From: Magnetococcales bacterium
GTDB taxonomy: Bacteria > Pseudomonadota > Magnetococcia > Magnetococcales > JADFWU01
DNA length: 11,629 nucleotides
Assembly (NCBI GenBank): GCA_015234045.1
Contig: JADFWU010000072.1
Location: forward strand, 1 to 11,629
Direction: 5' to 3'
Positions within the stretch are counted from its first letter, which is position 1; every line of letters starts with the position of its first letter. A program made the translations under genes and the position numbers. Below the pieces are notes generated by a model, which searched no databases, was not told the DNA's origin, and saw only the letters and a list, made by a program, of their open reading frames with translations. Below, in pieces: positions 1 through 11,273 of the stretch.

Positions 1-673
1 GCTTTTCATGGCGCGTATGGCAAGGGCTGATGGAACAAAGACCATCGTCGCCACGCCGCATGTCCATCGAGGAAAGTATGACAATGCCTGGCCGGATATT
101 CAAAAAAGTGCCGAAAAATTGCGTCACGCACTCAAAGAGGCCGAGATTGATATTGAAATCAGTGCAGGAGGTGAAATCCGCTACTGGCCAGGGCTTATGG
201 GTGCCCTGAAAAAGGGTACCATGCCCCTCTATAATCAGGGCGGTTCCGAACGCTATATATTATTGGAATTAAGCCATGGATCACTACCGGCTGGAGCGTT
301 GTATGGTGTCGAGATGATTTGTCGTGCAGGCTATCGACCCATCATCGCTCATCCCGAACGGATCACCTCATTCAAACGACAGCCAAGAAACTATGCACCG
401 TTGGCGGAAATGGGCTGTCTTGCACAGATAACCACCGCCTCTTTAACCGGTGGTTTTGGCTCAGGAGCCCGAAAAGCCGCTGCATCGTTCATGGAAATGG
501 GCTGGGTTCATGTGTTGGCCAGTGATGGACATGGATTCTATCGACGCCAACCAGTTTTAGCAGATGGCGAACGCGAAGCCGCCCGAATTGTCGGAGAAAA
601 ACGGGCCAGAGCCATGGTGGAAGACCATCCACAGGCAATCCTTAAAGGAGAACGCGTTTCCTGGTCTGTATAA
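1..673 (+). CDS. CpsB/YwqE-type PHP-domain protein-tyrosine phosphatase (5' end outside window)
   Basis: The reading frame is already open at the first bases, so the gene starts upstream of the window; the first ATG, at position 8, is internal. Numbered from that ATG, visible metal-site motifs are ATPHVH (residues 15-20), GGEIRYWPG (about 54-62), IIAHPER (about 113-119) and SDGH (about 172-175). These match, in order, the conserved histidine and acidic motifs of PHP-fold manganese-dependent tyrosine phosphatases such as CpsB/Wzb4 and YwqE. The N-terminal DxHxH metal motif should lie just outside the window. In the family these cytoplasmic enzymes dephosphorylate the tyrosine kinase that controls capsule or exopolysaccharide export. 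By inference, a polysaccharide locus lies to the left. The frame ends at a TAA at 671-673. No clear terminator follows. Confidence 0.85.
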   Translation, partial: LFMARMARADGTKTIVATPHVHRGKYDNAWPDIQKSAEKLRHALKEAEIDIEISAGGEIRYWPGLMGALKKGTMPLYNQGGSERYILLELSHGSLPAGALYGVEMICRAGYRPIIAHPERITSFKRQPRNYAPLAEMGCLAQITTASLTGGFGSGARKAAASFMEMGWVHVLASDGHGFYRRQPVLADGEREAARIVGEKRARAMVEDHPQAILKGERVSWSV

Positions 674-749: not shown

Positions 750-1211
750 ATGATTAACTTCTTACAGACAGCAAGCTTGTTCGGCGTGCCAAACGCGCTT
801 CAGAGGCGTTCGGCCAAAAGAACTGCACGCAGAGATATTCTAACCGATGATGGCGAAGAACTGACCGCACGTCATGTGGAGAACATGTCCTCTGGTACGG
901 TGGTGCGTTCCATAGAAAATCGGGTAAATACGCCCTCATCCGTTCATGGCCATGCACCGTGTCGAATTGGTGCAGCTTTTCAGAGTGAAATAGAAGCTGT
1001 TGAAGCGCTGTTGGCTGAATCGGATCACCAACCGTTGGTGCGTATCCAAAAGCGTCAGACCGCATCTAATGAGACACTTGAGCACTTAAAAGCCATTATT
1101 CAACGGGAAATGGCGCGAACTATCTCTAATAACCCAACGCATGCTCTGAAGCCAGAACTGCGTAAAAAGTTGCTTATGGCGGCTTTGAGGCGGTTTTCAG
1201 CTGGTTATTAG
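750..1211 (+). CDS. Uncharacterised 153-aa protein
   Basis: I do not recognise a family. The protein has no convincing signal peptide or membrane segment and is hydrophilic. The N-terminus begins MINFLQTASLFGVP and is followed by a basic stretch (ALQRRSAKRTARRD). The middle is probably disordered, rich in Ser, Asn, Thr and His. The C-terminal third looks helical (SEIEAVEALLAE, then LEHLKAIIQREMART, then PELRKKLLMAALRRF) and could be a small helical bundle or protein-binding module. The start is chosen from the strong GGAGGGG site. The gene follows the phosphatase by 76 nt on the same strand and might be co-transcribed with it. Its last 38 nt overlap, antisense, the end of the AlbA_2/ATPase gene. 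The good ribosome site and uninterrupted frame support a real gene, but its function is unknown. Confidence 0.6.
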   Translation: MINFLQTASLFGVPNALQRRSAKRTARRDILTDDGEELTARHVENMSSGTVVRSIENRVNTPSSVHGHAPCRIGAAFQSEIEAVEALLAESDHQPLVRIQKRQTASNETLEHLKAIIQREMARTISNNPTHALKPELRKKLLMAALRRFSAGY

Positions 1212-3234
1212 CCTTTTTTATCTTTCGTGCTTCCGTTTTTGCCGTGGTATAGGCCTGTGATGGATGGTTCGGGGTCGTTGGGAATGCACGCCTGAGTGAT
1301 CGCTCTTTAGTCACCATTGGATTTAGATAGTGGATTCTGAGCGATTCCTTTTTACGGTTCAGTAGTTCTGACAATACATCAAGTGTAATATAGTGTTCTG
1401 TACAAAGAGATATAATAGTGTTTTTCACTAACTCACATTTACAGCGTCCAGATCTGGCGACTGGAAAAGCTAATGCACGGAGTTTGTTTTGATGTTCTGA
1501 GTCTAGTTGTTCCATTCTTTGAATAAGTGGAAAATCAAGTTGTTCTACGTTTGTCGGTGTCTTATGTACGGAGCTTTCAGGCCCACTATGTACGGAGCTT
1601 CCAGGCCCACTATGTACGGAGCTTTCAGGTCCACTATGTACGGAGCCATCAGGTCTGTTATGTACGGAGTTTTCTGTCAAATGTTCGGAGTAGATGCCAT
1701 TGCCACTGAATACATCGTCTGCGGAAGCAAACTTTTCTCCTGGTAAATGATAAATAGTGCCACGTCCGCGCCCATTTGATACAAGGAAACCATCTCGGAC
1801 GAGTTGTTGCAGAGACAGAGTAAGATCATGGGGGTGATCGGCAACAATAGAGACAAGGCGACCATGATTTGCAGTTTTTTCTGTCTTTATCAAAGCCAAT
1901 ATGGTGCGTTCTAGTCGTCCTAATTGTTGGAATTTTTCTCCAAAGCGTTTGCCAAGGTCTGCCATTACACCCTCTGGCATGAGATCCAACATGCGTAATT
2001 CAAGCAAAGTTTGCTCAGGTTCAGTTTTTTCATAGAGTGCGGGAGTGCGCCAGTGCTGGCTTTTCCAACCACTGTAAATTTTTGGAATGCCCGAGCCAGC
2101 ACGTTCACCAAGTCCGATATTTAAGAACATTTGATGCATCAGGCGATTCCGGCAATCGCTATCGCCGCCGATTAAGGCTTGTTCTATAGGTATTCGCATG
2201 TTTCCAGGATTCCGAAACTCAAACATATCAGGTCGTTTAATTACCATTAGGGAGAGGCGACCAGTAAAGTCTGCATGCACTAAGGTGTTGATTAAGGCTT
2301 CACGAATGGCGATATGGACCGGACTATCGCCTTCCCGTTGGCTATTACGTACGGCAAAAGGAATTTTGAGTTCAGCTATGAGTTTACGGAAAACCACTCT
2401 GTAGAAGTCAAACAGATTACCCGACCATGTACCATCCAAGGTCAAACGATCTACCCAACGTAACGCTTTATTGGTTTCAGGTCGTTCCTGATAATCCAGA
2501 AAATAGTGTGGAACGGCTTCTTGGATGGAGGGCAGTTGTCCAAACATCAACAAGCCTGCCAGGGTGAGTCCCGATTCTCCACTTTGGCGATCCTTACGCC
2601 ATGCACCGATTCTATGCAAAAAATCCTGGTGATTAATCTCATTCCAGGGATGTTCAGGCTTGTGATTGCTAAACATCTGTCGATAGGTTTGAAAAGAAGT
2701 CATTGTCAAATCTTCAATGCCATATCCTATTAAAATGCGGGTGTCGCGTTCATCTTCAATCTGTTCGACCAGCATTCGACGGACAGTTTCCTCATCACAA
2801 ACATGATCCCCATCGTTAAATCGGCGATAAGTATTTCCAATAAATTGGTTGTTGAGATAAACTGGCCTCTGTTTGCGAGTCGCACGGGGAATAGTGATGG
2901 CTAGGATTTGTGATCCCTCTAAATTGATCACAAAAACATGATCATCAGTAAGTAGATTGATGCTGACTTGTTTGGGATTGTTCAGATTGTTGAACAGGTC
3001 TTTCCTGATTTTCTGGATATTCTTGATGCCTATTGGTGAAAAGCGTCCATCCGCTTCTTCTTTTATGCCCAACAACACCAAACCGCCTTGCGTATTGGCA
3101 AACGCACTATAGGTTTTCCAAAAATCTCTGGGCAAAGCACCTTGCCCATCTCGGCCTTGGGCAGATTTACACTCAAGATCCATGGTTTCAGATAGGGTAG
3201 AGAGATCTTCCAGCGTTTTTGGGAGGGTAATCAT
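1174..3234 (-). CDS. AlbA_2-domain GHKL-type ATP-binding protein with winged-helix domains (COG2865-like)
   Basis: The 686-aa protein has the usual order of this family. An N-terminal AlbA_2 (Schlafen-like) domain spans about residues 10-140, with ETMDLECKSA at 16-25 and AFANTQGGLVLLGI at 45-58. A GHKL/HATPase_c-type segment spans about 300-400: REALINTLVHADF (311-323, the N-box with E312, N316 and H320), FRNPGNMRIP (340-349) and the glycine-rich GLGERAGSGIPKIY (374-387). A winged helix (about 440-498) follows, then a low-complexity linker of 8-residue repeats (about 523-560), and a C-terminal winged helix (about 605-664) with LNRKKESLRIHYLNPMV, typical of these proteins. Members are usually annotated as ATP-binding transcriptional regulators; AlbA_2 proteins bind nucleic acid and some occur near defence genes, so the precise role is open. 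AGGT lies 5 nt before the ATG at 3234. By eye, the C-terminal third is more AT-rich than the neighbours. The 3' end overlaps the plus-strand gene by 38 nt. Confidence 0.85.
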   Translation of the reverse strand: MITLPKTLEDLSTLSETMDLECKSAQGRDGQGALPRDFWKTYSAFANTQGGLVLLGIKEEADGRFSPIGIKNIQKIRKDLFNNLNNPKQVSINLLTDDHVFVINLEGSQILAITIPRATRKQRPVYLNNQFIGNTYRRFNDGDHVCDEETVRRMLVEQIEDERDTRILIGYGIEDLTMTSFQTYRQMFSNHKPEHPWNEINHQDFLHRIGAWRKDRQSGESGLTLAGLLMFGQLPSIQEAVPHYFLDYQERPETNKALRWVDRLTLDGTWSGNLFDFYRVVFRKLIAELKIPFAVRNSQREGDSPVHIAIREALINTLVHADFTGRLSLMVIKRPDMFEFRNPGNMRIPIEQALIGGDSDCRNRLMHQMFLNIGLGERAGSGIPKIYSGWKSQHWRTPALYEKTEPEQTLLELRMLDLMPEGVMADLGKRFGEKFQQLGRLERTILALIKTEKTANHGRLVSIVADHPHDLTLSLQQLVRDGFLVSNGRGRGTIYHLPGEKFASADDVFSGNGIYSEHLTENSVHNRPDGSVHSGPESSVHSGPGSSVHSGPESSVHKTPTNVEQLDFPLIQRMEQLDSEHQNKLRALAFPVARSGRCKCELVKNTIISLCTEHYITLDVLSELLNRKKESLRIHYLNPMVTKERSLRRAFPTTPNHPSQAYTTAKTEARKIKKANNQLKTASKPP
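1563..1682 (-). repeat. Five 24-bp tandem repeats coding for a Ser-Val-His-rich linker
   Basis: Units begin at 1563, 1587, 1611, 1635 and 1659, each opening with TATGTACGGAG on the plus strand. Units 1-3 differ by only one or two bases; units 4 and 5 are more diverged; a broken sixth copy (GTTCGGAG) follows at 1683. On the coding (minus) strand each unit gives eight residues of the type SVHSGPES, so changes in copy number keep the frame. The array joins the two winged-helix parts of the AlbA_2/ATPase protein. The near identity of three units suggests recent slippage or duplication. Confidence 0.9.
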
Positions 3235-3534: not shown

Positions 3535-6500
3535 CTACTCTTCTTTAATCTCCCAATTAAAGCCCATCGCCTCAAGTCGTCTGGCTCTTTGAGGGTCTAA
3601 TCGACCCGCTTGATAGGATTGTCTCTGAAACTTAACCCAGAGTCCCAGTTGTGGGTTTTTGGACCAGTTCAGTGGGACATCAAAGTGACCGTTTTGATGC
3701 CGGAATAGCCACAGCTCCATAAACATCTCTTCTGCAACAACACGTTGTTCATCCCATTCAAATCCCAGTTTATCGAGCCGAGTGCGGTAGGGTTTGGCCA
3801 GGGCATTATTGTTACCAGCGATTCGTTGCGCCTGAATCCAGCCAGCCAGTTCAGGGTTTTCCGGCCAGTCACGTGGCGCGATGCAGTGACCATAGCGGGC
3901 TTTGTGGGCTTTTAGGTGGTCGTACATTTTGTTCCATTGCAGGCGGAACGGGTCCCAAATAAAATCCAGTGTATTCAGGCGTTTTACATGCTCTTCTGGT
4001 AGGCTTTTATTATGGAATGCTTTGCGTTGAGCACCTGCCCACCAGGCTAAATTGGGATTTTCACGGTACTCTTCAGGAACATTGCCGTGACCATGCCGCC
4101 GCCGAAAATCAGACAGTGCAGCATACATCTCTTCCCATAAAGAATCCTGTTGGTCCAGGACAAAACCAATCTGCTCAAACTGGGCGATCTGTTCAGGAGT
4201 TAATCGACCGGCTTCAAAATCCCTGCGTTGCGCCATAACCCAGCGGGCCAGTTTTGGATGCCCACGCCAAGTTTTTGGAATATGGCAGTGGTGATGATCC
4301 AGTTGATACTGTTTTAACACCAAAAACATCTCATGCCAAAGGGCTTCTTCTTCATCCCAATTGAAACCAATCTCGGTAAGTTTTGCTTCAAGGGCTGGGG
4401 AGAGTCCACCGCCCTTTTTAAGTTTTCGGGTGCGGTTCAACCATAAATTAAGAGCTGACCAAGCGGGCATGGTTTTGGGAACATTATCATGACCCTGCTG
4501 TTTTTTAAACTGGATCAATTCGTTGATCATATCTGCTTCATAAGATGCTTGAAGATCCCAGCTGAACCCTATCTCATCCAAACGATTTTTACGCTCTTCT
4601 GATAAAACACCCATCTGATGTTGTCGTCTTTGAAGGGCAGCCCATGCACCTAAGGCGGATCGGCCCGGTAGGCGGTCTGGTACAGCGGCATGTCCTGTTT
4701 CCTGTTTGAATTGAGTAAGGCAGGAGAACATTTCCAGCCAATAATTCTGTTCAGGATCAAATATGAAGCCGATTTCTTCCAGCATCTTTTTCTGTTGGTC
4801 CGGTAATTTGTTTTTAGATGCCAGTTGACGCTGCTGTTGAATCCAACGACCAAGTTGACAGCGTTCCAACTCTTTTGGCAGTTGGCACTGTCCTGTTAAC
4901 CGACGATAGCAGATTAACGCCAGATAGAAGCCGTCCCAAATGGCGTATTGAAGATCCCAATTAAAGCCCAGTCTATTGAGTCGTCCAATCTGATCATCGG
5001 TAAGCTGATTTTTTAACCGAAGTGTGCGTTGTTGAAAGACCCATGTTGCCAGTTCGGCATGATCAGGGTCATTTTTCTCAACCCGGCAGTGCCCATGATA
5101 CGCATGGAACTGTTTTAGTGTTTCCAACATGCCGTCCCAGGCATATGCTTTTGGATCCCAGATAAAGCCCAGCCCATCCAGACGTTGCTGATAGTTGGGA
5201 TCAATTTTATCATCCTGCCATGCTTTTCTTTGCGCTTTGGCCCATTTGCCTAGTTCTGGCAGAGGATCAAATCGGTCTGGCACATTGCCATGGCCATTTT
5301 GCAATCGAAATAGAATGAACCGAACCAGCATGGATTCCCATTCAGCCGCCTGAAGATCCCAGATGAAACCAATATCATCCAATCGGGTCTTGCGTTCAGG
5401 CGAAAGTTTATTGGTTCGATTCAGGCGGCGCTGGGCATCAACCCATTGGGCCAGCTCCTGGTGTTGCTCATCCGTTTTATCTACTCGGCAGTGGCTGTGT
5501 TGAAATCGATATTTGACCAGCTTGGCAAAGAGTCGATTCCAATGAAATTGTTCCAGATCCCAAACAAAACCGATCTCATCCAGTTGCTGTTTATGCGCGA
5601 TTGAGAGCGTTTGTTTGTCTTGGGCCAAGCGTTGTTGATTGGCCCAATCTGCCAGCGGTTGATTCTGTTCCCATTTTTTGGGAATGGCGCAGTGCGTGTT
5701 CTGTTTGATATACGCGACAGCCTGTTGAAACAGAATCTGCCATTCGGTCTCGTCTGGATTCCAGTCAAAGCCCGCTTGATCCAGTTTCTGACGGTATTCA
5801 TCCGATAGCGTGCCCAGTTGGTCAAGGCGGCGTTGGGCAATGACCCATTTGGCAAGTTCGGGATCATCATCCCATTTTTTGGGAACGCGACAATGTCCGG
5901 TTTGACCTTTGAAGTGCATTAGATCAGAAAGAGATTTATGCCAGGCAAAATTGTCTGGATCCCAAATAAAACCAGCTCGATCCAACAAAGTCGCCCATGC
6001 TTCGCCCAATTCCCCTTTGCGCCAGAGTGTTCTTTGGCTTTGTGCCCAGGCCGACAGTTCAGGGTTTTCTTCATCCTTGGTAGGCACATTGCCGTGGCCG
6101 CGTTGTTGAGACCATGTTAGAAATGCACCGTAGTGATAATCCCAAGGGTGATGCAGCAGTTCCATCACTTGTTGCACGATATCATCATGCCAGGCGTTGT
6201 CCTCATCACCGCTGTCCAGAGGTGTGATCCAATCCGCCAGGGCAGAGAGCTCCCAACACCCTTGCTGACCCGCAGAAACTGCCAGTTGATGGCACAGGTT
6301 GTCAAAGCTTGGATCAATCTCTCGGAGTGTTTGCAGGATCACCATCAGTGGTTCAATATCCCACTGATGTTCTTTGATATCTCCAGGTAGTGGAATGCAC
6401 AGATCAACCGACTCTGCCGAGCCTGATTCATCCATCAAATAGGCGATAATGGCTGGCAGATCTTCGCGGGATTTTAATGGATTAACCACCATAACCAGTG

Positions 6501-8028
6501 AAGTTGGGATTGTCTGATCCTCATACAGCAGCGCCCGCGTTGTCAGTTGGATCATGGTCTGTTTTTTTGGCAGGTCGGCTGCAATCAGGCCGGTGCGCTC
6601 CCAAGCGGGTTGTGCGCCCAAAACAGGACGCAGCTGCACGGCTGATTTTTTGGACACTTCCGCTTCATCAATCGTAGATATAAGCGTTTTGATGATTTTG
6701 ACAGCAGGATAGAACGCGGTGATATGGCTCGGTTTCTCTGATTCAAGCACGCTGTCAAACAGGCGTGTGGTCTCAAGATCAGCGCTTTCCACGGGAAAGG
6801 GACGGATGGTTAAACGCGGCAGTAAGCGTTTTTTCTGAGCCTGATCCAGGGTTATGGCGTGATGAATCATTCCGGTCAGTGCGGAATCGCTCAGACTCCA
6901 GAGCGAACGCGGATCACCTTGTGGAGTGCGCTTGGTGATATCAAAACAGTGAGGCTTATGGGCAATACAGATTCTGGTGCGAATCGGTAGCCAGCTGTCA
7001 TCCAGTAGATTGGCATCCGATGCGGCTTTTTTACCGACCAGATGTTGGGCATTGAGCACCAAGGCCAGATCCAACGCACCTTCAACCACATCAGCGATAA
7101 GATCCACGCTGGAAAATGTGGTAATGATTACCCGAATACCGGAAAAGCGCCAGTTGAGAAAATGCTTAACCGTATCATGAGAACCAGCCAGATGAAAATC
7201 CAGATCCATAGGCCGAAAACGCGGTAAATCAGTTGCGCCGCCCGGTAAATTGTCTGCACAGAGCGGCAGACAAGCGATTGTTGACCAGCCGACAATACAT
7301 TCCCAATGGTGGATCAGTTTACGTATACCCGCCAAACTATCAGTGACGATTAGCGCAGTTCGATGTGATCCCAATTGCTGGACGAGGTTCAAACAGAGCC
7401 GAGAAAGATCCAGACCTGGTGGCATGATCAGTGTCAGTCGGTCGTCATCAGCAAGATAGTCATTGATGGCTTCGGTAACCGGTTCCAACCAACGCGGGTT
7501 GGATGGATGACGCATGCGGATTCCACCATTTTGCAACCAACGCTGAATCACCATGAAATCGGCTGCACTGAGTCGATCCAGGTCTGTACCGCGAATGGTA
7601 TAAAATCCATCCTGTCGATTCAGTGCATTGGGCAGTTCAGATACATTGGTGATGATCAACCGATGGGCCATAGGGCCACGCCAGTTGAAAAATGGATCAA
7701 AAATCTTCGGTTTGGGTGATTTTCTCTGATCCTGAAACAGGGTGGTATAGCCCATATAGTGGCCGGAAGGCGTTTTGAAAACACCTTGAAAACCATCCTG
7801 CTCAGTGGGTGTCTTATGAAATGTTGGTTTCAGTGGTACAGGCCAGATTTCCAAAGCCATCACCAAACGGCGTGTGGCGATGAACGCTTCGGCAAAGGCA
7901 GCAAAAGCGGCTTGCTGATCTATCTCCGGCAACAGGCTAATGCGTTCTTCAAGGTCGGAAAACGTGGAAAGACGGGCAAAGAGGCCCTGTTGTACCAGTT
8001 CCTGAGCGCGAGGATGCCGAGGGGTCAT
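3535..8028 (-). CDS. Pseudo-nuclease/pseudo-helicase with 13 helicase-associated (HA) repeats
   Basis: The chosen ATG at 8028 gives 1497 aa and lies 16 nt past the upstream stop; the frame stays open to an ATG at 8211, but that lies inside the preceding gene. The Shine-Dalgarno is weak (AGGA 14 nt away). Residues 1-170 align by eye with the restriction-endonuclease-like N-domain of long DEAD/DEAH helicases (for example GFYTIRGTDLDRLSAADF), but the DGxDG/QxK-type active site reads DGFQGVF (78-84) and YTTLF (94-98). Residues 170-595 keep SF2 helicase order with altered motifs: Walker A MPPGLDLS (202-209), DEAH as NAQH (326-329), TATP as AHKP (356-359), and QxxGRxxR as AIIAYLMD (526-533). Neighbouring framework segments (TALIVTDSLAGI, VIITTFSS, LWSLSDSALTG, VVNPLKSREDL) remain recognisable. 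Residues 629-1497 are 13 HA repeats, predicted three-helix nucleic-acid-binding modules. By inference it is a non-catalytic nucleic-acid-binding or scaffold protein. No frameshift or internal stop is present. Confidence 0.8.
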   Translation of the reverse strand: MTPRHPRAQELVQQGLFARLSTFSDLEERISLLPEIDQQAAFAAFAEAFIATRRLVMALEIWPVPLKPTFHKTPTEQDGFQGVFKTPSGHYMGYTTLFQDQRKSPKPKIFDPFFNWRGPMAHRLIITNVSELPNALNRQDGFYTIRGTDLDRLSAADFMVIQRWLQNGGIRMRHPSNPRWLEPVTEAINDYLADDDRLTLIMPPGLDLSRLCLNLVQQLGSHRTALIVTDSLAGIRKLIHHWECIVGWSTIACLPLCADNLPGGATDLPRFRPMDLDFHLAGSHDTVKHFLNWRFSGIRVIITTFSSVDLIADVVEGALDLALVLNAQHLVGKKAASDANLLDDSWLPIRTRICIAHKPHCFDITKRTPQGDPRSLWSLSDSALTGMIHHAITLDQAQKKRLLPRLTIRPFPVESADLETTRLFDSVLESEKPSHITAFYPAVKIIKTLISTIDEAEVSKKSAVQLRPVLGAQPAWERTGLIAADLPKKQTMIQLTTRALLYEDQTIPTSLVMVVNPLKSREDLPAIIAYLMDESGSAESVDLCIPLPGDIKEHQWDIEPLMVILQTLREIDPSFDNLCHQLAVSAGQQGCWELSALADWITPLDSGDEDNAWHDDIVQQVMELLHHPWDYHYGAFLTWSQQRGHGNVPTKDEENPELSAWAQSQRTLWRKGELGEAWATLLDRAGFIWDPDNFAWHKSLSDLMHFKGQTGHCRVPKKWDDDPELAKWVIAQRRLDQLGTLSDEYRQKLDQAGFDWNPDETEWQILFQQAVAYIKQNTHCAIPKKWEQNQPLADWANQQRLAQDKQTLSIAHKQQLDEIGFVWDLEQFHWNRLFAKLVKYRFQHSHCRVDKTDEQHQELAQWVDAQRRLNRTNKLSPERKTRLDDIGFIWDLQAAEWESMLVRFILFRLQNGHGNVPDRFDPLPELGKWAKAQRKAWQDDKIDPNYQQRLDGLGFIWDPKAYAWDGMLETLKQFHAYHGHCRVEKNDPDHAELATWVFQQRTLRLKNQLTDDQIGRLNRLGFNWDLQYAIWDGFYLALICYRRLTGQCQLPKELERCQLGRWIQQQRQLASKNKLPDQQKKMLEEIGFIFDPEQNYWLEMFSCLTQFKQETGHAAVPDRLPGRSALGAWAALQRRQHQMGVLSEERKNRLDEIGFSWDLQASYEADMINELIQFKKQQGHDNVPKTMPAWSALNLWLNRTRKLKKGGGLSPALEAKLTEIGFNWDEEEALWHEMFLVLKQYQLDHHHCHIPKTWRGHPKLARWVMAQRRDFEAGRLTPEQIAQFEQIGFVLDQQDSLWEEMYAALSDFRRRHGHGNVPEEYRENPNLAWWAGAQRKAFHNKSLPEEHVKRLNTLDFIWDPFRLQWNKMYDHLKAHKARYGHCIAPRDWPENPELAGWIQAQRIAGNNNALAKPYRTRLDKLGFEWDEQRVVAEEMFMELWLFRHQNGHFDVPLNWSKNPQLGLWVKFQRQSYQAGRLDPQRARRLEAMGFNWEIKEE
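3538..6144 (-). repeat. Array of 13 HA-domain coding units, 201-bp period
   Basis: Counting from the ATG at 8028, repeat starts (the leading Trp position) fall at residues 629, 696, 763, 830, 897, 964, 1031, 1097, 1164, 1231, 1298, 1365 and 1432. The step is 67 residues each time except one of 66. Each unit follows W..(M/F)...L..F....GHC.VP......P.LA.WV..QR......L...R...L...GF.WD. The leading Trp is missing only in the ninth and thirteenth units, and the GFxWD end is altered in a few. The DNA copies are clearly diverged from each other, so the array is old, yet no linker length has drifted. The pattern matches the helicase-associated domain (Pfam HA). Confidence 0.92.
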
Positions 8029-8044: not shown

Positions 8045-10129
8045 CTATCTTGGTGTTGAGTCTGGCAAGCCGCCATCCACAGGAATGGTTGCGCCGGATG
8101 TAGGCGTTTGGCGGGTTGCAAAGAAAAGTACCGCCCGGCCAACATGTTCCGCTGTAACGCGGGCTTTGAGCAGGTTGCGCTGTTGATAGTACGCTTCCAG
8201 ACCGGCTTCATCCAGGTTACGCGCTTTCATGCGGTCTGGTCCGACTTCGGCCCACAGGCCGGATTTACGCGCACCATCGGAAAATACCGCATCCGGTGAG
8301 ACCATATTGACTCGTACATCCATATCAGCCATTTCAAGGCTGGCAATACGGGCCAGTTGGTGGGAGCCGGCTTTGGTTGCAGAATAGGCACCAAAACTGG
8401 CACCTGGGCAGAAAACATTTTTGGTGGAGATTAAAACAATATCACCGCCCAAAGCTTGTTTTTTAAAGAAACGGCCCGATTCAGAAAGCAGATTGAGGGT
8501 GCCTTCCACGTTGACTTTTTCCAGCAGTTGAAATTTTTTCAGGTCCATATCCGCCAGGGTCGAGACATGGGCAAGACCGGCATTGATAACCACCAGGTCC
8601 AAACCGCCCCAAGTAGCGATAATGCGATTGAAGCCAGCTGATACGGAATCAGGGTCGGTTACATCCAGAGCAATACCGATAATGCGGCCTTGATGATCTT
8701 CTTCCAGCGTTGAGACGAGGCTGTCCAAAGCGGGTCCAGCAAGGTCGGTGGCGGCCACATGGCAGCCTGCTTCAAGCAGGGAGCGGCACAAGCCCGAGCC
8801 AATGGCACCGGCAGCACCGGTAACCAAGGCAATACGATCGAAAAGTGCGGGTGGTTTTTCCTGGTCGAGTTTGGCCAGTTGAGGGCCAAAGTATTCCATA
8901 TCAAACAGATGATTATCACTCAAACCTTCATAGTCTGAACCACTGTCGGCAATGAGACGTTTGGTTTTCAATGTTTGATTGGTGATGTCCCGAACAATAG
9001 TCGCTTCCCGATTCGTATGACCCATGCAGATTGCACCGAATTGAGGCGATAGAATTACCCGAGGAATGCTGTCAAATCTATGTTTTTGATGTGTTTTTTT
9101 ATTTGCATGAGCATCGAAATAGTGATCATAGGTTACGGCATAGGTTTTGAGTGCATCATCCAGTTGATCCATAGTGTCCAACCAGAGCGGGAAGGGTTTG
9201 GTACGGATCAGATGATCGGCTGTCAGCGGTGGCGTATTGGCCATGGCCTTGCCATGTGTACTGTTGAGGAAAAACAGGATCTCATCAGAAACCAAATGAT
9301 GCAAAATAGCTCTGTTCCAAGGTCGATCAGGATTACCTGTTGCCGTTGATAGAGCGCTTCTGAGACGTGGTGCCAATGTTTGGTAGTTTTGACGTGCCTG
9401 TTCCATGGAGGGTGTGCCAGGCAGCATACACACTTGAACCGATGTTTTTGCCAACCATTTTTCAGCTTTATCCACCAGTTTTATGGTGGCTTCATAGGAA
9501 TCACGGGCAGTGTCACCCCAAGTGACCAAGCCGTGTTTCATCAGTACGATGCCTCTGTTCTCTGTGGCCGATGCGAACACATTGCCAGCGGCTTTGGAGA
9601 GTTGAAAACCAGGGTGTACATATTCCAAAAGCGACACATTCTCGCCAAGCACGTCTTGAACGATTTTATCGCCATCGGGTCGATTGGTCAGAGCGAGTAT
9701 GGCATCGGGATGGGTGTGATCGACATATTTCCGAGTGATGAAAGCGTGCATCAATGACTCAATGGAGGCATTGCCTGATTTTCTCCACAGACGTTTGATT
9801 CTGAGGCAGTCCGACATCTGTTTGTCTGTAAGATGTGTCAGAGCTTGGAGTTTTCTCAAATAGACCAAATCCAATGACACGTGACCACGAGGTTTGATGG
9901 TGGCCAGATTTGAACCAGAGGCTTTGACGTAGAGTGCGGGGATGCGATTTCCCAAGGGATCGCAGCAGTGATCTTTCACTGATGTGTTTCCACCACCATG
10001 CAGAACCAGTGCAGGATTTTGACCTAGCAAACGACTGGAATATGTGCGTAATGCTACCGCTTTACTCCATTTCTTCTGGTACTTTTCCACAAACGACTTA
10101 GCAAGCGTGTCAGACCAGTGGCTCTGCAT
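8045..10129 (-). CDS. Bifunctional class II aldolase / short-chain dehydrogenase (RhaD-ADH type)
   Basis: The 694-aa protein is a natural fusion at the normal length of the rhamnulose-1-phosphate aldolase/alcohol dehydrogenase family. The N-terminal class II aldolase/adducin domain shows GGGNTS (45-50), the zinc-binding pair in DHTHPDA (H138, H140) and a third histidine in MKHG (H199). The C-terminal SDR domain (about 431-694) has the nucleotide-binding TGAAGAIG (437-444), NAG (516-518) and the catalytic Ser568, Tyr582 and Lys586 (YSATK). In characterised relatives the aldolase splits a ketose 1-phosphate into DHAP and an aldehyde, and the dehydrogenase acts on the aldehyde with NAD(P). The substrate here is not determined; rhamnulose 1-phosphate or a 5-deoxypentulose phosphate are options. 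AGGA (10136-10139) is 6 nt ahead of the ATG. The gene follows lsrF by 34 nt and precedes the pseudo-helicase by 16 nt, so all three may be one operon. Both active sites look complete. Confidence 0.88.
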   Translation of the reverse strand: MQSHWSDTLAKSFVEKYQKKWSKAVALRTYSSRLLGQNPALVLHGGGNTSVKDHCCDPLGNRIPALYVKASGSNLATIKPRGHVSLDLVYLRKLQALTHLTDKQMSDCLRIKRLWRKSGNASIESLMHAFITRKYVDHTHPDAILALTNRPDGDKIVQDVLGENVSLLEYVHPGFQLSKAAGNVFASATENRGIVLMKHGLVTWGDTARDSYEATIKLVDKAEKWLAKTSVQVCMLPGTPSMEQARQNYQTLAPRLRSALSTATGNPDRPWNRAILHHLVSDEILFFLNSTHGKAMANTPPLTADHLIRTKPFPLWLDTMDQLDDALKTYAVTYDHYFDAHANKKTHQKHRFDSIPRVILSPQFGAICMGHTNREATIVRDITNQTLKTKRLIADSGSDYEGLSDNHLFDMEYFGPQLAKLDQEKPPALFDRIALVTGAAGAIGSGLCRSLLEAGCHVAATDLAGPALDSLVSTLEEDHQGRIIGIALDVTDPDSVSAGFNRIIATWGGLDLVVINAGLAHVSTLADMDLKKFQLLEKVNVEGTLNLLSESGRFFKKQALGGDIVLISTKNVFCPGASFGAYSATKAGSHQLARIASLEMADMDVRVNMVSPDAVFSDGARKSGLWAEVGPDRMKARNLDEAGLEAYYQQRNLLKARVTAEHVGRAVLFFATRQTPTSGATIPVDGGLPDSTPR

Positions 10130-10163: not shown

Positions 10164-11045
10164 TTATCCTTCGTTCTTCAGTGTCTCATAGAGATCCAGA
10201 GCGTCTTTGGGCTTCATATCCTGGTGTACCACGGCACGCACGGCTTGGATCATGGCGGCTGGCGCATCGGATTGGAAGATATTGCGTCCCATATCCACGC
10301 CGGAAGCGCCTTGTTGAATGGCGTTGTGTGCCATAGTCAGTGCGTCCAGTTCAGGCAGTTTTTTACCACCGGCAATCACGATAGGCACAGGGCAGGATGC
10401 GGTGACGGTCTCGAAATCTTTTTCTACATAATATGTCTTGATGTAGGAAGCGCCGAGTTCAGCACAGATCCGGCTGGCCAGTCGCATATACTTGGCATCA
10501 CGTGCCATGTCACGACCAACGGCAGTGACACCCAACACTGGGATGCCGTAGCGATTGCCCATATCCACCAAGCGGGTCAAATTGTGGATGGATTGCGTTT
10601 CAAACTTGCCGCCAACATACACCTGAACCGCCATAGCGGAAACATTCATACGGATGGCATCTTCCATGCTGACCGCGATATTCTCATTGGACAGTTCGGA
10701 CAGAATGCTTGGACCACCGGAAGCCCGCATAACGATACCTTTGGTAAAGGTGGGCGGTACGGTGCTGCGCAGGATGCCACGTGTACACATCAGAGTATCG
10801 GCATATTTTAACAATGGAACAATAGTAACATCAATTCGTTCCAAACCGGTAGTTGGTCCCATGAAGTAACCGTGATCCACGGCCAACATCACGGTACGAC
10901 CGGTTTCTGGATTAAAAATATTGGACATGCGGTTTTTCATGCCCCAATCCAGAGCATTGGAGCCTTTCATCATGAATGCCTCACTGGTGGCGGGTGTGTC
11001 AAGATGATATTTTGAGGCTTCCTTGTTGCCGTCTAGGTCTGCCAT
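10164..11045 (-). CDS. lsrF: LsrF-type 3-hydroxy-5-phosphonooxypentane-2,4-dione thiolase (class I aldolase fold)
   Basis: The 293-aa protein follows E. coli LsrF closely from end to end: it begins MADLD and shares NALDWGM-type, [53 protein letters not shown] and [16 protein letters not shown] segments. The Schiff-base lysine is present at residue 203 in YIKTYYVEK, the position of the catalytic lysine in E. coli LsrF. There the enzyme transfers the acetyl group of phosphorylated, isomerised autoinducer-2 to CoA, yielding acetyl-CoA and DHAP in the cytoplasm. No lsr transporter, LsrK kinase, LsrG isomerase or LsrR regulator is in this window. The substrate may be AI-2 derived or another phosphorylated diketone. 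TGAGGA (11055-11060) precedes the ATG by 9 nt. It is the first gene of the probable operon, behind a promoter at 11132-11161 and a palindrome at 11078-11095. Related DhnA-type aldolases are the main alternative. Confidence 0.88.
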
Positions 11046-11199: not shown

Positions 11200-11273
11200 T
11201 GGCTGGTGGACTAGGATTCGAACCTAGATTAGAGGAGTCAGAGTCCTCTGTCCTGCCGTTAGACGATCCACCA
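11200..11273 (-). tRNA. tRNA-Gln (anticodon CUG)
   Basis: The minus strand folds as a full cloverleaf. The acceptor arms TGGTGGA and TCCACCA are perfectly paired (U1-A72). The anticodon stem GAGGA/TCCTC encloses the loop CTCTGAC, giving anticodon CUG for the CAG codon, and the T arm has GGTTCGAATCC. The discriminator base is G73, as expected for glutamine tRNA, and the CCA end is encoded. It lies 58 nt downstream of gltX and is followed at once by a terminator, so it is probably processed from a gltX-tRNA transcript. Confidence 0.95.

Follow-up and report, generated by a model that had tools for sequence, protein, structure and literature searches.

The Type ISP enzymes LlaBIII (4xqk) and LlaGI (5ffj) carry a nuclease and an SF2 helicase core in one chain, and HA-repeat DEAD/DEAH helicases (PF03457; for example, those of Pseudomonas and Rhodococcus plasmids) carry an SF2 core followed by an array of helicase-associated (HA) repeats, which Pfam describes as probably nucleic-acid binding. 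Pseudohelicases are also known. Utp25 (PMC9539457) and the PriA protein of Deinococcus radiodurans (PMC4504706) have both kept their helicase fold and their function with ATPase motifs that are lost or dispensable, and PriA has retained DNA binding and a protein partner. Here we describe a gene from a member of the Magnetococcales that shares the nuclease-SF2 core of the Type ISP enzymes, with the same order of blocks over residues 21-599, and, as in the HA-repeat helicases, continues into an HA array.

The window (the whole stretch of DNA analysed, 11,629 nucleotides) holds the gene on its minus strand, at 3535-8028, as a single frame of 1,497 codons without a stop or frameshift, in agreement with an earlier, sequence-only reading that had put it at about 1,500 codons. 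The interval 6247-8028 (minus strand) is codons 1-594 of this frame. Translation probably begins at the ATG at 8028, with which the family start 'MlPrHPkA' aligns; an alternative ATG at 8211 is less favoured, as it would overlap the upstream aldolase gene, which ends at 8045. The gene is predicted to comprise:

3535-8028, minus strand: whole gene, pseudo nuclease-SF2 core plus 13 HA repeats, 1,497 amino acids
7579-8028, minus strand: Mrr-like nuclease-derived domain, residues 1-150, catalytic residues gone (profile, AlphaFold model, superposition and alignment)
6814-7518, minus strand: first RecA-like domain of the SF2 core, residues about 171-405 (profile and structure)
6232-6813, minus strand: second RecA-like domain and subsequent helices, residues 406-599 (profile and structure)
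3559-6150, minus strand: array of 13 HA repeats, PF03457 (Pfam)

Homology and predicted fold of the core

A family alignment was built from 37 N-terminal regions, those of the window copy and 36 orthologues. Its profile aligned with that of intact Type ISP enzymes over 579 columns (profile-profile E 8e-37) and with that of HA-type helicases over 426 columns (hhalign E 5e-40). Reversed-profile controls gave E values of 0.49 and 0.81, respectively, which rules out a chance resemblance to nuclease-helicases. When PDB sequences were searched with the 37-orthologue profile (hmmsearch), LlaBIII (E 1e-36) and LlaGI (E 2e-35) came top, 29 orders of magnitude ahead of the next matches.

AlphaFold2 predicts residues 1-599 with confidence (pLDDT 88.1, pTM 0.90), as a nuclease and two RecA-like domains, with the RecA folds intact. 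Foldseek ranked LlaBIII first for this model (E 5e-24, TM 0.75), and a second structure aligner matched 527 residues of LlaBIII to model residues 21-599, including the nuclease (Z 32.8, rmsd 3.5). By profile and by model, residues 1-599 are thus homologous to the nuclease-SF2 core of Type ISP enzymes. The sequence-only reading had proposed this retained framework and named structure prediction as a check on it; the prediction recovers the expected folds.

In the window copy the core escapes routine annotation: Pfam has no match within residues 1-594, NCBIfam has none on the whole protein and PADLOC models have none on the core, which leaves annotation with the HA repeats. Pfam finds 13 of these after residue 600 (PF03457, above the curated cut-off, family E 2e-178).

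Loss of catalytic residues

By alignment, these motifs of the intact enzymes correspond to remnants in the window copy:

7783-7800, minus strand: nuclease D-x-G-x-D remnant, residues 77-82, QDGFQG
7738-7746, minus strand: nuclease Q-x-K remnant, residues 95-97, TTL
7402-7422, minus strand: Walker A remnant, residues 203-209, PPGLDLS in place of A-C-G-T-G-K-T
7042-7056, minus strand: motif II DEAHR remnant, residues 325-329, LNAQH
6952-6963, minus strand: motif III TATP remnant, residues 356-359, AHKP
6430-6453, minus strand: motif VI QxxGRxxR remnant, residues 526-533, AIIAYLMD

In an alignment with 52 intact relatives, not one of 10 core catalytic residues is left in the window copy, so the earlier claim that all visible catalytic motifs were erased holds. 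Its register is also right for Walker A (GTGKT to GLDLS, 205-209), motif III, motif VI and the nuclease Q-x-K (T95-T-L97). For DEAH the loss stands and the proposed NAQH is one residue off, the gapless alignment giving L325-N-A-Q328; for the nuclease DGxDG the loss likewise stands and the two aspartates now align with Q77 and Q81.

The loss is common to the family. We counted retention in a merged alignment of the 37 pseudo copies with the 52 intact relatives. In the nuclease, the first aspartate is kept in 1 of 35 copies and the Q-x-K lysine in 0 of 37. Walker A has lost its second threonine and its lysine from every copy (0/37 each) and its last threonine from all except one (1/37); the DEAH aspartate survives once (1/37) and the glutamate in 10 of 37; in motif VI, the glutamine and first arginine are each kept in 1/35 and the second arginine in 15/35. 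None of the 37 orthologous copies has an intact GTGKT or an intact DEAH, which rules out an isolated decaying allele, an outcome that the sequence-only reading had named as fatal to its proposal.

Mean family retention of the 10 chemistry-bearing residues is 0.08, whereas the 106 other columns that intact enzymes conserve average 0.29 (Mann-Whitney p 0.004). For a looser catalytic set of 20 columns, which adds glycines, alanines and motif III, loss is no greater than at other conserved columns (p 0.31). Structural columns are well kept in the family (F113 in 97%, W242 in 95%, D510 in 94% and G386 in 100% of 28). Some lineages still have motif III and the motif II A-H (LTATT, MDAHR), the pattern expected from a single death of the ATPase with later drift of the remainder.

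Without the P-loop lysine, the metal-binding aspartate of motif II or the arginine fingers, ATP-driven movement is not expected, and without the nuclease lysine and aspartate neither is DNA cutting. We infer that the family protein can neither bind and hydrolyse ATP nor cut DNA. The motif V arginine, which in LlaBIII (R564) grips DNA (PMC7049714), is kept in the window copy (R498) and in 38% of the family.

An order-wide family and its aldolase operon

One branch, with support of 100, parts the 37 pseudo copies from the 52 intact ones in a quick maximum-likelihood tree that has several long branches and unsure deep joins. The pseudo copies mostly cluster by host family, and two deep groups within one family (f7) match genera g7 and g17. 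In 13 close orthologue pairs (with finite estimates for the core, the array or both in 12), dN/dS was 0.05-0.31 for the core and 0.06-0.20 for the HA array, with the array below the core in nearly all pairs. At the codon level, the core is therefore under purifying selection in close orthologue pairs; these values describe the pairs rather than the window copy, whose species has no close relative in the sample.

The family has also acquired sequence constraint of its own. About 25 residues that seldom occur at the equivalent positions of intact enzymes are conserved in 80% or more of the pseudo copies; they crowd in residues 16-164 (L16, F17, E27, R29, N128, L153, R163 and W164), with others at F290 and G587, and N128 and W164 are each present in 37 of 37 copies. 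Residues 1-170, the remodelled nuclease and linker, are the best conserved part of the protein. The window copy shares 26 of the 31 positions that the family conserves.

The gene occurs once per genome (some copies being split over contig ends) in 43 of the 48 genomes of the host order, Magnetococcales. An order-level genome search returned orthologues in 42 other genomes, all of the same order, and 13 sampled genomes outside it had none. Beyond the 43, one further genome of the order (G047) has HA repeats; elsewhere in the phylum these are uncommon, occurring in 4 of about 370 genomes outside the order. A single-sequence pattern search of the genome contigs for relatives found none, because inter-family identity is only about 25-38%. 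Searches of the window's own genome gave neither another HA protein nor a further match to the family profile, and no intact HA paralogue, which speaks against the earlier suggestion that the protein partners an active paralogue.

Two of the order genomes searched, G003 and G041, bear a separate intact Type ISP-like nuclease-helicase, as frames of 1,677 (L251, G003:C140) and 707 amino acids (L252, G041:C59), the latter shortened by a contig end or stop. The nearest outside relative by profile score is a 1,025-amino-acid minus-strand frame in a 1.2-Mb genome (L249, G310:C16), with nuclease, GTGKT, DEAH and QAAGRALR intact and a C-terminal repeat, W.DWLG, instead of HA.

Proteins of the pseudo family carry 9-13 HA repeats after the core. 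Their repeat consensus resembles that of the intact helicases, and their arrays carry almost no net charge (mean -0.8 per 100 residues), compared with mildly basic arrays in intact relatives (+2.3). Several plasmid proteins, L126 (Rufibacter), L128, L134 and L137, are HA arrays without a helicase core, so HA arrays also work alone elsewhere.

Upstream of the gene in the window lie two metabolic genes, named by their family matches:

8045-10129, minus strand: bifunctional class II aldolase/short-chain dehydrogenase (SDR), the upstream partner (NF006194, 818 bits, cut-off 686)
10164-11045, minus strand: LsrF-like 3-hydroxy-5-phosphonooxypentane-2,4-dione thiolase (NF006081)

An aldolase/SDR gene lies directly upstream on the same strand at 37 of 40 testable loci (35 of the 38 with enough upstream DNA, plus 2 read later). 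Of the 35 loci in which the gap to the pseudo-gene was measured, 27 have one of at most 40 nt; the median is 18 nt, and the gap in the window is 16 nt. The thiolase gene precedes the aldolase/SDR gene in 24 of 35 loci. At one locus (L056) the upstream aldolase/SDR is a more distant relative (33%). The exceptions to adjacency are G042 and G032, where the two genes are apart from each other, and L063; in G008 and G009, also of the order, the aldolase is present and the pseudo-gene undetected. Given these two genomes and the separated pairs in G032 and G042, the association is not a strict one. In G116, which lies outside the order, an LsrF-like thiolase (81%) adjoins an aldolase/SDR (57%) without a pseudo-helicase (L290, G116:C32), so the enzyme pair predates the pseudo-helicase or travels without it; the pair appears to be the older element, which the pseudo-helicase would have joined in this order. 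Both the order-wide loss and the operon tie had been overlooked by the sequence-only reading.

Genes downstream of the pseudo-gene show no conservation across loci. In the window, the next gene (1174-3234, minus strand) encodes a 686-amino-acid Schlafen AlbA_2/HATPase_c_4 protein with no counterpart in the other 39 loci; it contains a 24-bp in-frame tandem repeat (4.7 copies, 1563-1674) that encodes VHSGPxSS-like repeats. A tRNA-Gln(ctg) lies upstream of the operon (11200-11273, minus strand), and a protein fragment at the far end (2-673, plus strand) is PHP-type (CpsB/YwqE-like).

Possible roles and comparison with known systems

The family is strongly supported as an ancient, selected pseudo-enzyme. 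The sequence-only reading had preferred selection to decay, and family-wide loss together with purifying selection in 12 close pairs bears it out. The ancestor would have been a Type ISP-like nuclease-SF2 translocase core with a C-terminal HA array, in which nuclease and ATPase chemistry would have died in one event, no later than the base of the order, with the fold kept; it would then have acquired a conserved surface of its own and become fixed downstream of the aldolase/SDR gene.

What the pseudo-enzyme does can be proposed with less confidence. It may be an ATP-independent nucleic-acid-binding scaffold tied to the aldolase operon, a job to which we give about an even chance; a DNA-binding scaffold was among the roles that the sequence-only reading had suggested. 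The HA array, perhaps with the old translocase cleft, would hold nucleic acid as a static scaffold, the remodelled residues 1-170 would make a protein contact, and the whole might act in a process linked to the operon, such as control of its expression. Besides the exceptions to the aldolase link, two points count against this: near-neutral HA arrays do not favour strong nucleic-acid binding, and the DNA-gripping arginine is present in so small a share of the family.

These two observations make a serious rival, and the main one, of a role that does not involve nucleic acid: the protein would be a protein-protein scaffold or a regulatory subunit for the aldolase/SDR, or else for the LsrF-like enzyme, and its HA array a protein-binding rod. 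Conserved adjacency to the aldolase gene agrees with this, as does conservation that is strongest in the remodelled nuclease and linker and not along the DNA path. Yet aldolase/SDR genes in G008, G009 and G116 manage without the pseudo-gene and so have no need of it, and the likeness of the family HA consensus to that of intact helicases also tells against the idea; we consider it rather unlikely. Wider in scope is the proposal that, in a single conversion, a nuclease-translocase of restriction type became a non-catalytic part of a carbon-metabolism operon throughout a bacterial order, as a nucleic-acid-binding regulator or scaffold linking DNA or RNA to the aldolase/dehydrogenase, which we put forward tentatively, as plausible rather than probable.

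Descent from restriction-type enzymes might suggest a defence derivative, a decoy or dominant-negative partner modulating restriction or phage infection. However, a gene that is inherited vertically, in single copy, by nearly all genomes of the order and that sits in a metabolic operon does not resemble an accessory defence gene, no PADLOC model matches the core and an intact Type ISP relative was found in so few of the order genomes searched; we regard this as improbable, and found nothing in favour of the decoy role that had been suggested earlier. Slimmer still is the prospect that the protein remains an enzyme, using other, unrelated residues of the former cleft to bind nucleotide or carry out a different chemistry: the RecA folds persist in the model and the proline and glycine of the old P-loop are partly conserved (G205-equivalent in 32/37), but no lysine, threonine, aspartate or arginine for SF2 ATP hydrolysis is conserved and the replacements at lost sites vary between lineages. 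A decaying pseudogene, to which the window copy's long branch, at 2.37 changes per column, might point, has a negligible chance given the open frame, and is refuted at the family level by dN/dS in orthologue pairs and order-wide retention.

Set against LlaBIII and LlaGI, the family core has 15% identity and has lost its catalytic residues, and the window protein has an HA array in place of the coupler, methyltransferase and target-recognition parts; after residue 599 Pfam shows HA repeats alone, with no methyltransferase or target-recognition domain in the chain. Although its nuclease-SF2 core is homologous, the protein, judged on its sequence, does not belong among the Type ISP enzymes, because the active sites and the methyltransferase are missing. 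Nor does it have the intact Walker A and DEAH that define an HA-repeat SF2 helicase: sampled HA-repeat helicases have intact GTGKT, DEAH and QxxGRxxR, and mostly begin at the helicase, without a nuclease part. The predicted fold and alignment instead fit a pseudohelicase, a helicase fold with its ATPase motifs lost, and orthologue pairs and order-wide presence point to its retention under selection.

A literature search of incomplete coverage found no report of HA domains in Magnetococcus or of restriction-type pseudo-enzymes; if our reading is true, this would be a kind of pseudo-restriction enzyme without earlier description in the literature searched. A 600-residue fold and 9-13 repeats kept in fixed order with a metabolic enzyme would represent a defence-type machine repurposed, and because the order includes cultured members, the function of the family can be tested. 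Utp25 and D. radiodurans PriA belong to different helicase lineages from the window protein, which, unlike them, also has a dead nuclease domain and a 13-repeat array and is fixed in a whole order. Pseudohelicases are known singly, whereas here an order-wide family would have both a restriction nuclease and its motor dead.
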